Shown in pieces: positions 5,968-36,330 of a stretch of 64,000 bases of DNA; the stretch's first letter is position 1, and each line of letters starts with the position of its first letter. The DNA is from Weeksellaceae bacterium (GTDB lineage Bacteria; Bacteroidota; Bacteroidia; Flavobacteriales; Weeksellaceae). The DNA lies in contig OX460916.1 of NCBI GenBank assembly GCA_949788275.1, forward strand, positions 3,162,001-3,226,000, given 5' to 3'. Under the pieces are notes generated by a model. That model ran no database searches and was not told the origin of the DNA. It saw nothing but the letters and a program-made list of their open reading frames with translations. The translations under genes and the position numbers were made by a program.

Positions 5968-6006
5968 CAAATTATCGACTTATTTACCCAATTAAAACGG
6001 TGTTTT

Positions 6007-6114
6007 GCGGCAGCGATAGCAGCGGCATCCTTTTTTGGACAAATGTTCATTCAACCCTTCCATTTCATTCCCAAAAAAGATAGAGCGAATAGCGCGATCC
6101 TTTAGGAGCCGCCC
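6007..6114 (-). repeat. Dispersed structured repeat, copy A
   Basis: One of five related elements in this window. Read on the minus strand it starts GGGCGGC, has a small hairpin TCC(TAAA)GGA, the core GCTATTCGCTCTATC, a long hairpin with stem CTTTTTTGG/CCAAAAAAG, a GAT/ATC hairpin, and ends GCTGCCGC, which can pair with the start (GCGGC/GCCGC). It lies between the pruA terminator and the promoter of the cation transporter and points toward pruA. Apart from this element and the promoter nothing is seen in the 5968-6253 gap. Confidence 0.8.
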
Positions 6115-7157: not shown

Positions 7158-7264
7158 GGGCGGCCGCTTCGCGCCGGGCTATTCGCTCTATCTTTGCTGC
7201 AAGTGCATCTCGGTTGATGGAGAATAGAGCTGGCAGCAAAGGATGCCGCTGCTATCCCTGCCGC
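7158..7264 (+). repeat. Dispersed structured repeat, copy B
   Basis: Starts GGGCGGC 16 bp after the transporter stop. Small hairpin CGC(TTC)GCG, core GCTATTCGCTCTATC, long hairpin stem CTTTGCTGC/GCAGCAAAG, hairpin GGAT/ATCC, closing CTGCCGC. Same order of parts as copies A, C, D and E, with different but complementary stem bases. Confidence 0.82.
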
Positions 7265-7392
7265 AAGTCCTGCGTTTAAATAAAAATCTTCAATTGAAAA
7301 ACAACGTAATTTCAATTTATTATGCACTGTATCAATAAATGACCTTAGCTATTCTTAATAAAAAAATCCTTTGAATCAGGACTTTTTAAAAC

Positions 7393-23100: not shown

Positions 23101-24452
23101 GTGAAATAGAAGAAGGAAAAATTGTTGATATTGTTGTTTCTCGTTCTACGGAGATGAAATTAATTGACGATGCAGGTAATGTACGTCAAACAACGAATAT
23201 TCCTTACGGTACTATTTTATTGGTTAACAATCACTCACGTGTTGAAAAAGACCAAGAAATTGGGTACTGGGATCCATACAACGGGGTAATCGTAGCTGAA
23301 TCTACTGGTAAAGTAGAATACGAAAACCTAGAACAAGGGATCACTTTCCAAATTGAAATTGATGAACAAACAGGATTCCAAGAAAAAGTTATTTCAGAAT
23401 CACGAAATAAAAAGATCGTTCCTGCGTTAAAAGTAATCAGTAGTGATGGGGAAGAAAAAACCTATAACTTACCTTTAGGAGCTCACTTAATGGTGGGGGA
23501 CAACGATAAAATTAAAGCCGGTAAGGTTTTAGTGAAAATCCCGCGTAAGTCTGCTAAAACAGGCGATATTACCGGAGGTCTACCACGTATTACAGAGTTA
23601 CTAGAAGCACGTAATCCTTCTAACCCAGCAGTGGTGTGTGAAATGGATGGTGTGGTATCATTTGGTAAAATTAAACGCGGTAACCGTGAAATTATCATTG
23701 AATCTAAAAATGGTGAAATTCGTCGTTATTTAGTAAAATTATCAGCACAAATCTTAGTTCAAGAAAATGACTTTATTCGTGCCGGTGAACCTTTATCAGA
23801 TGGTGCAATTACGCCAGAGGATATCTTAAAAATTAAAGGACCTACTGCCGTTCAAGAATACTTAGTAAACGAAATTCAAGATGTATACCGTTTACAAGGG
23901 GTAAAAATTGACGACAAACACTTCGAGATTATCGTACGCCAAATGTTACGTAAAGTTCGTATTGTTGATGCAGGAGATTCTAGATTCTTAGAAGATAGCT
24001 TAGAGCATAAAGACGATTTCATGATTGAAAACGATCGACTTTTCGGAATGAAAGTCGTAGAAGACGCCGGAGATAGTAACGTATTAAACGCTGGTCAAAT
24101 TGTGACTGTTCGTGAAGTACGTGACGAAAACTCTCGTCTAAAACGTGAAGACAAAGTATTAGTAACTGCTCGTGACGCTATGTCAGCAACAGCAGAAGCC
24201 GTATTACAAGGGATTACACGTGCATCGTTACAAACCAAGTCGTTTATGTCTGCAGCATCGTTCCAGGAAACGACGAAAGTCTTGAATGAAGCAGCCGTTG
24301 CAGGTAAAGTGGACCGTTTAACTGGATTGAAAGAAAACGTTATCGTTGGACATCTTATCCCAGCTGGTACAGGTCTTAAAGAATATCAGAACATTATTGT
24401 AGGATCGAATCGTGAATACGAAGAATTAATAAACGCAAAACAAGAATTATAA
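20178..24452 (+). CDS. rpoC: DNA-directed RNA polymerase subunit beta'
   Basis: 1424 residues. Zinc-binding Cys residues in [20 protein letters not shown] near residue 70, the catalytic Mg site [16 protein letters not shown] (~residue 470), bridge/trigger region [19 protein letters not shown] and second zinc site [16 protein letters not shown]. The stop codon overlaps the ATG of the following small gene (TAATG), which couples their translation. Confidence 0.99.
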
Positions 24453-24748
24453 TGTCAGAAAATCAACAAAACGAAGGATTAAACATCGAGTTAAATGAAT
24501 TAGTAGCTCAAGGTGTTTACGCAACAGGTGCAATCATTAACCACTCTCCATCAGAGTTCGTGGTAGATTTTGTACAGTTTATGCCAGGTGCAAGACCAAG
24601 CGTAAAATCAAGAATCATTTTATCGCCATTACAAGCGAAACAATTGGTTAAATCATTAGCAGAAAACGTGACAAACTTTGAAACAAACTTCGGTGAGATC
24701 AAAGAACCACAAGCAAACAACAACGGAACTGCAACTTACGAAGCGTAA
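24452..24748 (+). CDS. DUF3467 domain protein
   Basis: 98 residues. NIELNELVAQGVYATGAIINHSPSEFVVDFV and FMPGARPSVKSRIILSP are typical of DUF3467, a small family of unknown function. Its start overlaps the rpoC stop by one base, so it is made with beta'. A strong terminator follows, making it the last gene of the operon. The linkage suggests a role with ribosomes or RNA polymerase, but this is only context. Confidence 0.9.
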   Translation: MSENQQNEGLNIELNELVAQGVYATGAIINHSPSEFVVDFVQFMPGARPSVKSRIILSPLQAKQLVKSLAENVTNFETNFGEIKEPQANNNGTATYEA

Positions 24749-24769
24749 GCAGCATTCTTAAATATTTTA

Positions 24770-24804
24770 AAAATCCCCCAATCAACGATTGGGGGATTTT
24801 TTTT
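24770..24804 (+). terminator. Terminator of the rpoBC operon
   Basis: 13-bp stem with a CCCCC/GGGGG core (24770-24782 with 24788-24800), CAACG loop, and a run of eight T at 24797-24804. Confidence 0.95.
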
Positions 24805-24816
24805 GTTTATGTAGGC

Positions 24817-24858
24817 GGTGTGCTTAGAATGTTCTATGGAGAACATTCTAAGCACACC
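24817..24858. repeat. Perfect 19-bp inverted repeat
   Basis: GGTGTGCTTAGAATGTTCT (24817-24835) and its exact complement (24840-24858) flank an ATGG loop. No T run follows on either strand, and it lies just past a complete terminator, so it is not an ordinary terminator. No open frame or transposase is nearby. Confidence 0.8.
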
Positions 24859-24860
24859 TC

Positions 24861-24897
24861 GTTTAAGGTTTAAAGGGTTTAAGGTTTATTACGTTTA
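24861..24897 (-). repeat. Degenerate inverted copies of the 7-mer array unit
   Basis: GTTTAAG, GTTTAAA, GGGTTTAAG, GTTTATT: three to four decayed units in the opposite orientation to the perfect array 140 bp downstream. Confidence 0.6.
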
Positions 24898-25033
24898 ATG
24901 TTAAATTATAGCAATACAATAAGAATGGAGACCACCGAATCGACCATATCATTTAGCTATAAGCTCTTTTTTTGGAATAAATTTATTGAAATAATCCGCC
25001 TTTTTATTTGCAAAGAATAGTCCCATTTTTTAG

Positions 25034-25180
25034 CTTAAACCTTAAACCTTAAACCTTAAACCTTAAACCTTAAACCTTAAACCTTAAACCTTAAACCTTA
25101 AACCTTAAACCTTAAACCTTAAACCTTAAACCTTAAACCTTAAACCTTAAACCTTAAACCTTAAACCTTAAACCTTAAAC
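25034..25180. repeat. Tandem array of 21 identical 7-bp units (CTTAAAC)
   Basis: 147 bp made of exactly 21 uninterrupted copies with no variant unit. In the phase CCTTAAA it resembles plant-type telomere repeat CCCTAAA, but it lies inside a chromosome between housekeeping genes. It occupies most of the centre of a 590-bp gap (24805-25396), in which no gene is seen. The perfect identity implies recent expansion or active homogenisation by slippage. Confidence 0.97.
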
Positions 25181-25366
25181 ACCATCCATCTAAAAAATAA
25201 TAGAAGGTGCTCTTGAAGTGGCGACATGCTCTTTCTTTATGAATTCTGCAAAACAGAATGAATAAAATTAACGATTTTTATTAAATTCATAAATATCCGC
25301 GTTATTCATGGTGAATATTTAATCGATTAGGTAAAAAAATCGGTTTTTAGAATTGAAAAAATTGAT

Positions 25367-25374
25367 TAGATTTG
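25367..25374 (+). promoter_or_regulatory. -7 promoter element for the E2 gene
   Basis: TAGATTTG fits TAnnTTTG, 22 bp before the ATG at 25397. No good -33 box is seen at the expected distance. Confidence 0.5.
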
Positions 25375-25396: not shown

Positions 25397-26683
25397 ATGT
25401 CTGATTATAAATTAATTCTTCCTTCAATGGGTGAAGGTGTCATGGAAGCCACTGTAACCAATTGGATTAAAAATATAGGCGATTCTATCGCCGAAGATGA
25501 ATCGGTTGTAGAAATTGCAACGGATAAAGTAGATTCGGATGTACCGTCTCCTGTAGCTGGTGTCTTAAAAGAGATCTTAATTCCCGTAGATGGGGTAGCG
25601 AAAGTGGGTGAAGCCATTGCTATTTTATCGGTGGATGGAGATGTTGCTCAAGTAGAGACAACTTCTAAGACGACCGATACACCGAATGAGGTTGTTGAGG
25701 CTGCTAGCACGCTAGAGCAAGAGATGACATCGACGATAAACGAACCCATTAGTTCGTCTGATGATAAGTTTTATTCGCCATTGGTTAAATCGATTGCCCA
25801 AGCGGAGGGTATTTCTCAACAAGAATTAGATCGCATTCAGGGAACGGGTTCTGGTAATCGCGTTTCGAAAGAAGATATTTTGGCTTATGTACAAAATCGT
25901 CAGCAACCACAAGCTGCTGTTGTTCCTGTAACAGAAAAAGCGATTGTGAAAGTAGCTCCGGTTCAATTAGCTTCTGGTGATGAAGTGATTGAAATGGATA
26001 GAATGCGTAAGATTATTGCGAAGAATATGGTGTCTGCGAAACAAGTTGCACCCCATGTTACGAGCTTCTTAGAAGTTGATGTTACCAATATTGTACTTTG
26101 GAGAAATCGAGTGAAGAATGCGTTTTTAGCCAAAGAAGGTGAGAAAATTACCTTTATGCCTATTTTTATTGAAGCCATAGCGAAAGCGATCAAGGATTTT
26201 CCAATGATCAATGTTTCAGTAGATGGGGATACCATTATTAAAAAGAAAAATATTAATATAGGGATGGCTGCGGCTTTACCTTCGGGTAACTTAATTGTTC
26301 CCGTGATTAAAAATGCTGATCAATACAATTTAGCTGGTTTAGCTAAAAAAGTAAATGATTTAGCGAACCGCGCTCGTCAGAATAAATTAAAACCAGACGA
26401 GATTCAAGGCGGAACGTATACCATTACCAACATTGGTTCTTTTGGGAATGTGTTGGGTACCCCAATTATTCCACAACCTCAGGTTGCTATTATGGCTGTA
26501 GGAGCTATTGTTAAGAAGCCTGCAGTTATTGAAACACCTCAGGGCGATGTTATTGGTATTCGTCATAAAATGTACTTATCGCATGCGTACGATCACCGTG
26601 TGGTGGATGGTGCTTTAGGTGGTATGTTTGTAAAACGCGTAGCGGAATATCTTGAAGCTTTTGATATGGATCGTCCTGTTTAA
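25397..26683 (+). CDS. 2-oxo acid dehydrogenase E2 (dihydrolipoyl acyltransferase)
   Basis: 428 residues. N-terminal lipoyl domain with Lys44 in EIATDKVDSDVPSP, an Ala/Thr/Pro-poor linker (residues ~80-115), a peripheral subunit-binding domain (SPLVKSIAQAEGISQQELDRI, ~128-160) and a catalytic domain with His400 and Asp404 in DHRVVDG. It transfers the acyl group from lipoate to CoA in a pyruvate, 2-oxoglutarate or branched-chain complex. The lipoyl motif (DKVDSDVPSP) and single lipoyl domain fit the branched-chain type best. It is alone here: no E1 or E3 gene adjoins, so the partners are elsewhere. Confidence 0.9.
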   Translation: MSDYKLILPSMGEGVMEATVTNWIKNIGDSIAEDESVVEIATDKVDSDVPSPVAGVLKEILIPVDGVAKVGEAIAILSVDGDVAQVETTSKTTDTPNEVVEAASTLEQEMTSTINEPISSSDDKFYSPLVKSIAQAEGISQQELDRIQGTGSGNRVSKEDILAYVQNRQQPQAAVVPVTEKAIVKVAPVQLASGDEVIEMDRMRKIIAKNMVSAKQVAPHVTSFLEVDVTNIVLWRNRVKNAFLAKEGEKITFMPIFIEAIAKAIKDFPMINVSVDGDTIIKKKNINIGMAAALPSGNLIVPVIKNADQYNLAGLAKKVNDLANRARQNKLKPDEIQGGTYTITNIGSFGNVLGTPIIPQPQVAIMAVGAIVKKPAVIETPQGDVIGIRHKMYLSHAYDHRVVDGALGGMFVKRVAEYLEAFDMDRPV

Positions 26684-35998: not shown

Positions 35999-36108
35999 GG
36001 GCGCCTCCCTACGGGCCAGGCTATACGCTATATCTTTGCCCAATGAAGAACATAAATTAAATCAACTTCATAATATTGGGCAAAGGATGCCGCTCCTATC
36101 CTTGGCGC
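35999..36108 (+). repeat. Dispersed structured repeat, copy D
   Basis: Starts GGGCGCC. Small hairpin CCC(TAC)GGG, core GGCTATACGCTATATC, long hairpin stem CTTTGCCCAAT/ATTGGGCAAAG extended by ATGAAG/CTTCAT, hairpin GGAT/ATCC, closing TTGGCGC, which pairs with the start as GCGCC/GGCGC. A short inverted remnant of the core (AATAGCGAATAG, 35961-35972) lies just before it. Confidence 0.82.
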
Positions 36109-36219
36109 AATAAGTGTTGTAATTTTGAAACGAAGGCTTTGAAAGAGCAGGGTGTATTTTTAAAACAAAGTAATTAATTCCATAAAAACCCTTGTTACCA
36201 ATTTCTATAAATAGGAATT

Positions 36220-36330
36220 GCAGCAACGATAGAAGCGGAAATCTTTTGCAGTTCTCCCCTTCTCCCTATTTATAGAAATGTTGAACTGCAAAAATTGGGA
36301 GCGGATAGCGTGACCCGTAGGGGGCTGCCC
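36220..36330 (-). repeat. Dispersed structured repeat, copy C
   Basis: On the minus strand it starts GGGCAGC. Small hairpin CCC(TAC)GGG, a diverged core GCTATCCGCTCCC, long hairpin stem TTTTGCAGTTC/GAACTGCAAAA, GAT/ATC hairpin, closing GTTGCTGC, which pairs with the start as GCAGC/GCTGC. It faces copy D 111 bp away. A 15-bp sequence just outside (36201-36215) is repeated in inverted form inside its long-hairpin loop (36265-36279). The 35813-36377 gap holds these two elements and a terminator; no gene is seen. Confidence 0.75.

Follow-up and report, generated by a model that had tools for sequence, protein, structure and literature searches.

The window analysed here, a stretch of 64,000 nucleotides, comprises bases 3162001-3226000 of a 3,342,924-base (3.34 Mb) single-contig chromosome. 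Within it the genes rpoB and rpoC are followed by a gene for a DUF3467 protein, a strong intrinsic terminator, an element that carries an array of heptamers, and the gene for a 2-oxoacid dehydrogenase E2 subunit. A first-pass annotation had placed the array between rpoBC and the E2 gene. These flanks are correct, but the DUF3467 gene and the strong terminator separate rpoC from the array. The features, in window coordinates, are as follows.

24452-24748, plus strand: DUF3467 gene, 3' of rpoC (E 2.8e-27)
24769-24809, plus strand: intrinsic terminator that closes the rpoBC-DUF3467 operon, with the strong terminator at 24769-24801; its position is conserved in congeners
24817-24858, no strand: perfect palindrome with a 19-bp stem and a 4-nt loop, adjoining the left inverted units
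24861-24888, no strand: inverted heptamers GTTTAAGGTTTAAAGGGTTTAAGGTTTA, the left inverted end
24889-25033, no strand: body of the element, about 74-91% identical to three other chromosomal copies
25034-25180, no strand: perfect array of 21 CTTAAAC heptamers, the right end of the element
25364-25374 (position approximate), plus strand: promoter-like TTAGATTTGTA 5' of the E2 gene, conserved in congeners
25397-26683, plus strand: 2-oxoacid dehydrogenase E2 (dihydrolipoamide acyltransferase) gene

The array, at chromosome position 3187034 of 3342924, consists of exactly 21 units, as had been annotated, and has no variant in 147 bp. One given unit has a probability of about 1e-4 at the base composition of the window, so that 21 tandem units are not due to chance. 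From the end of the array it is about 180 bp to the promoter-like TTAGATTTG, a correction to the earlier value of about 190 bp, and 216 bp to the E2 start codon. The promoter role of TTAGATTTGTA is inferred from its match to the Bacteroidota -7 consensus, TAnnTTTG. All six frames of the array contain stops, and the element region has no open reading frame of at least 100 amino acids. The likeness of the unit to a plant telomere repeat, pointed out previously, appears coincidental. The plant unit is TTTAGGG and is found at chromosome ends, whereas the present TTTAAGG lies inside a bacterial chromosome.

The array forms the right-hand end of a dispersed element about 320-364 bp long, in which a long perfect palindrome, inverted heptamers, a body of about 145 bp and the array follow one another from left to right. 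The inverted units that the first-pass annotation had described as decayed are present at the left end; the palindrome and the other genomic copies of the element were not part of that description. Within the left units, the 13 bp GTTTAAGGTTTAA are exactly complementary to the array units, giving the window copy inverted ends, GTTTAAGGTTTAA and TTAAACCTTAAAC, that are exact over 13 bp. The predicted single-strand DNA fold of positions 24810-25060 (-45.5 kcal/mol, z -8.6) has the palindrome and the left units folded back on the array units. The best conserved part of the body is proximal to the array (AAATAATCCGCC...TTTTTTAG).

The genome search suggested earlier for further CTTAAAC arrays found at least three perfect units at eight chromosomal places, on both strands; three places have about 22, 21 and 9 units, and each of the remaining five has about 4. 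The body is shared by four of the eight places and is always followed by the array. It is near-complete at 3187034 (the window), 777999 and 1204768 and partial at 2101061, and the adjacent arrays have 21, 22, 9 and 4 units. The stretch of body next to the array is again the best conserved (AAATAATCCGCCTTTTATTTGCAAAGAATAATCCCATTTTTTAG). In the three fuller copies the body opens with GTTTAAGGTTTAAA, which is inverse to the array units, and these left units are directly flanked on the outside by a palindrome. The palindromes of the window and 777999 copies are visibly related (TGTGCTTAG...CTAAGCACA), with one differing pair that is changed on both arms. The bodies of the copies diverge by about 25%.

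Comparison with congeners indicates that the element was acquired in this lineage. The gap between the DUF3467 and E2 genes is 648 bp long here, as opposed to 229-239 bp in all 13 congeners, where it contains a terminator together with the promoter-like TTAGATTTGTA, which shows slight variation in one congener, and none of palindrome, body or array. Both the terminator and the promoter-like site remain in place around the element. The 777999 copy starts directly after the terminator of the isocitrate lyase gene, and the element is missing from all 11 congeners that have this gene. At 1204768 the array runs into the end of prmC, whose last residues and stop codon it provides; in 13 of 13 congeners prmC ends without an array. 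A search of the congeners for the body gave only short weak matches, none above AT-rich noise. Because it is absent from congeners at the window locus and at two other loci, the element is best read as an insertion that was gained after the split from the 13 congeners. As these are distant (76-79% identity in E2), the edges of the insertion are known only to about 20-50 bp.

We consider it likely that the array is the right terminus, expanded by slippage, of a non-coding and MITE-like dispersed repeat, inserted in this species and probably without a role for E2. A copy of the element would have inserted into the gap between the rpoBC-DUF3467 operon and the E2 gene, just after the operon terminator, bearing terminal inverted heptamers, GTTTAAG... 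on the left and CTTAAAC... on the right. Slippage would then have lengthened the right end, so that it has 21 units here and 22, 9 and 4 in the sister copies, and the array would have been tolerated because it is flanked by a terminator and a promoter that are both intact. The length of the element and its lack of coding capacity are those of a MITE (below about 600 bp). Its ends are inverted repeats, with GTTTAAGGTTTAAA also to the left of the 777999 and 1204768 copies, and there are three near-complete copies and a partial one at non-homologous sites. The small size of the family, only four copies of which one is partial, weighs against this assignment. Comparison of the target sites of the three fuller copies, the edges of which are blurred by array and palindrome, gave 5-nt matches at chance level at two and none at the third, and thus no consistent target-site duplication. 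A search of the genome for Y1_Tnp genes yielded a single gene, associated with unrelated repeats, and no transposase with matching ends was found. Movement as a unit, which we infer together with the absence of a cellular function, is for these two reasons unproven. The element is called MITE-like, and not a proven MITE, because length, inverted ends and dispersed copies fit while the target-site duplication and the partner transposase are not established. On this reading the source of a bacterial satellite array can be traced to the inverted end of a dispersed repeat, which slippage then extended into long arrays. With unit numbers of 4, 9, 21 and 22, the four sister copies make up a natural series in which slippage could be measured, and they are a potential marker for strain typing.

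The array is unchanged over its whole length, in contrast to the bodies and to the decayed left units. It is therefore younger than the element or is kept uniform by turnover. Replication slippage is probably the simplest cause of its growth, given zero changes in 147 bp beside bodies that differ by about 25%. The recent slippage growth proposed in the first-pass annotation fits the perfect units, the divergent bodies and the paralogue counts of 22, 21, 9 and 4; the differences in unit number are those seen between paralogous copies within one genome.

Slippage by seven nucleotides looks like a general habit of this genome, because periods that are multiples of 7 account for 14 of the 28 short tandem repeats in 157 kb (p = 7e-5 against an assumed null of even use of periods 7-35). 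This sample, which consists of the window and 30 loci centred on Flavo-1, is non-random and includes the array itself; what is said here of the genome as a whole derives from searches and samples. Many of the multiple-of-7 repeats are of other words, such as ATCTAAATACTAAC. In most of the genomes surveyed, heptanucleotides are reported to outnumber every other category of long simple repeat (PMC4679880). At least three copies of CTTAAAC occur in 7 of 198 relatives, and also in many unrelated genomes. A composition-matched permuted unit and its reverse reached this number in 0 of 198 and the reversed unit in 1 of 198, so that the difference (7/198 versus 0/198, Fisher p = 0.015) is modest evidence against chance recurrence of the unit. 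A broader process, so far unrecognised in Bacteroidota, might seed and grow period-7 DNA of many words beside intergenic palindromes and Flavo-1, favouring CTTAAAC across genera. We regard this as doubtful; if true, the present element would be one carrier of it. Both the period-7 bias and the very high copy number of Flavo-1 are poorly explained in Bacteroidota.

It is distinctly unlikely that local units and slippage alone made the arrays, with no mobile element involved and with shared flanks left by an old segmental duplication. Arrays of 7-nt and multiple-of-7 period, of many words, are common in the genome and the family, and the failure to find a target-site duplication also agrees with such an origin. 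However, palindrome, left units and body stand in one order at three unrelated intergenic sites, and the element is absent from the congeners at each of these sites.

We think it very improbable that the array is a contingency locus, in which E2 transcription is tuned by the number of units, be it through the spacing of the promoter, the binding of a protein or the shape of the DNA. In other bacteria genes are indeed tuned by perfect short tandem repeats that precede a promoter, and a role as regulator sites has been proposed for intergenic heptamers (PMC4679880). However, the window array lies in no reading frame, leader or promoter spacer, where a contingency locus would be expected; it ends upstream of the promoter-like site, outside the promoter boxes and the 5' leader. 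Since it is situated between the terminator and this distant site, a change in unit number would alter neither the promoter spacing nor the E2 leader, and control of E2 by spacing or via its mRNA is unlikely. The congeners have the same gene layout without the array, and the unit also occurs beside unrelated genes, two sister arrays being at the 3' ends of isocitrate lyase and prmC. The array has no phased A-tracts, its AAA tracts having zero coherence at 10.5 bp, and DNA bending was rejected on this ground. Folding gave no RNA structure for the array, and an Rfam scan of the window and seven array loci of the same genome found no known RNA at the array itself. The part in E2 expression suggested by the first-pass annotation is thus unsupported, given that congeners keep terminator and promoter without the array and that phased A-tracts and RNA structure are lacking. 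Judged from sequence, the array is most likely a tolerated repeat that has no specific function for E2. An assembly artefact or a wrong unit count can hardly be the explanation, as the chromosome is one closed contig, the 147-bp array has unique flanks and the unit is found at eight places with differing counts.

REP and BIME palindromes are mobilised by Y1 transposases (RAYTs). The present element is like them in being associated with intergenic palindromes near gene ends, and differs in that the only Y1_Tnp gene found in the genome lies within an array formed by another repeat. A RAYT origin was therefore rejected. The nearest element in kind is BrickBuilt of Porphyromonas gingivalis, a MITE with 19 copies that contains a minisatellite with a 23-nt unit between leader and tail (PMC4596501). 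Both are dispersed intergenic repeats of Bacteroidota that end in small inverted repeats and include a tandem array. Unlike in BrickBuilt, the 7-nt unit here is itself the inverted end, a long palindrome lies outside, the sequence is different, and there are only four bodies as against 19 copies. The nearest heptamer case is that of the TAACTGA intergenic repeats of Beggiatoaceae, Cyanobacteria and some Bacteroidetes, which reach 43 copies in some members of the latter two groups (PMC4679880). These are likewise perfect intergenic heptamer arrays, missing in relatives whose gene neighbourhoods are otherwise similar. However, the word is different, the array described here is part of a larger element, and it is not in an evident 5' leader, whereas TAACTGA in Beggiatoaceae stands just before start codons. 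Compared with the long simple sequence repeats of prokaryotes, with units of 5-11 nt (PMC4679880), the array is distinguished by a definite origin, namely the end of a dispersed repeat. No description of a heptamer that forms an inverted end and expands there was found in the literature searched.

The sole Y1_Tnp gene (155 amino acids; L309:1-3345, at about 718.7-722.0 kb of the chromosome) is embedded in a dense array of REP-like hairpins (GCCCC..GGGGC) and probably represents a RAYT that has repeats of its own.

Flavo-1 (RF01705) is catalogued as an sRNA. It has at least 141 chromosomal copies above the curated cut-off, 150 of 853 candidates having been scored. In the window it is found at 6005-6103, 7168-7266, 36010-36111 and 36218-36319. 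Its copy number, and the report that its matches lie without distinction in sense or antisense orientation to transcribed regions (PMC9723704), make it resemble a dispersed DNA repeat more than a gene for an RNA. GTTTAAG arrays are often near Flavo-1 or its fragments. Flavo-1 was rejected as the source of the array, most of the 30 sampled copies being without one and no match lying close to the window array. Long perfect palindromes occur upstream of Flavo-1 in 11 of 30 cases (among them loci L283, L284, L287, L296, L303 and L308), downstream in 3 of 30 and in 0 of 30 control stretches; the upstream ones have stems of up to 25 bp and differing sequence, and some are ordinary terminators. Adjoining the 9-unit array, the gene of an IS110-family transposase (2284-3327 of L174:1972-3524) splits an apparent single Flavo-1 into GCGGCAGGGATT and GATAGCAGCGG, which suggests that this insertion sequence targets Flavo-1. 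In another genus of the family (L177-L179), CCTTAAA arrays lie beside AATTAGG and CCAACAA-like heptamer arrays, forming mosaics.
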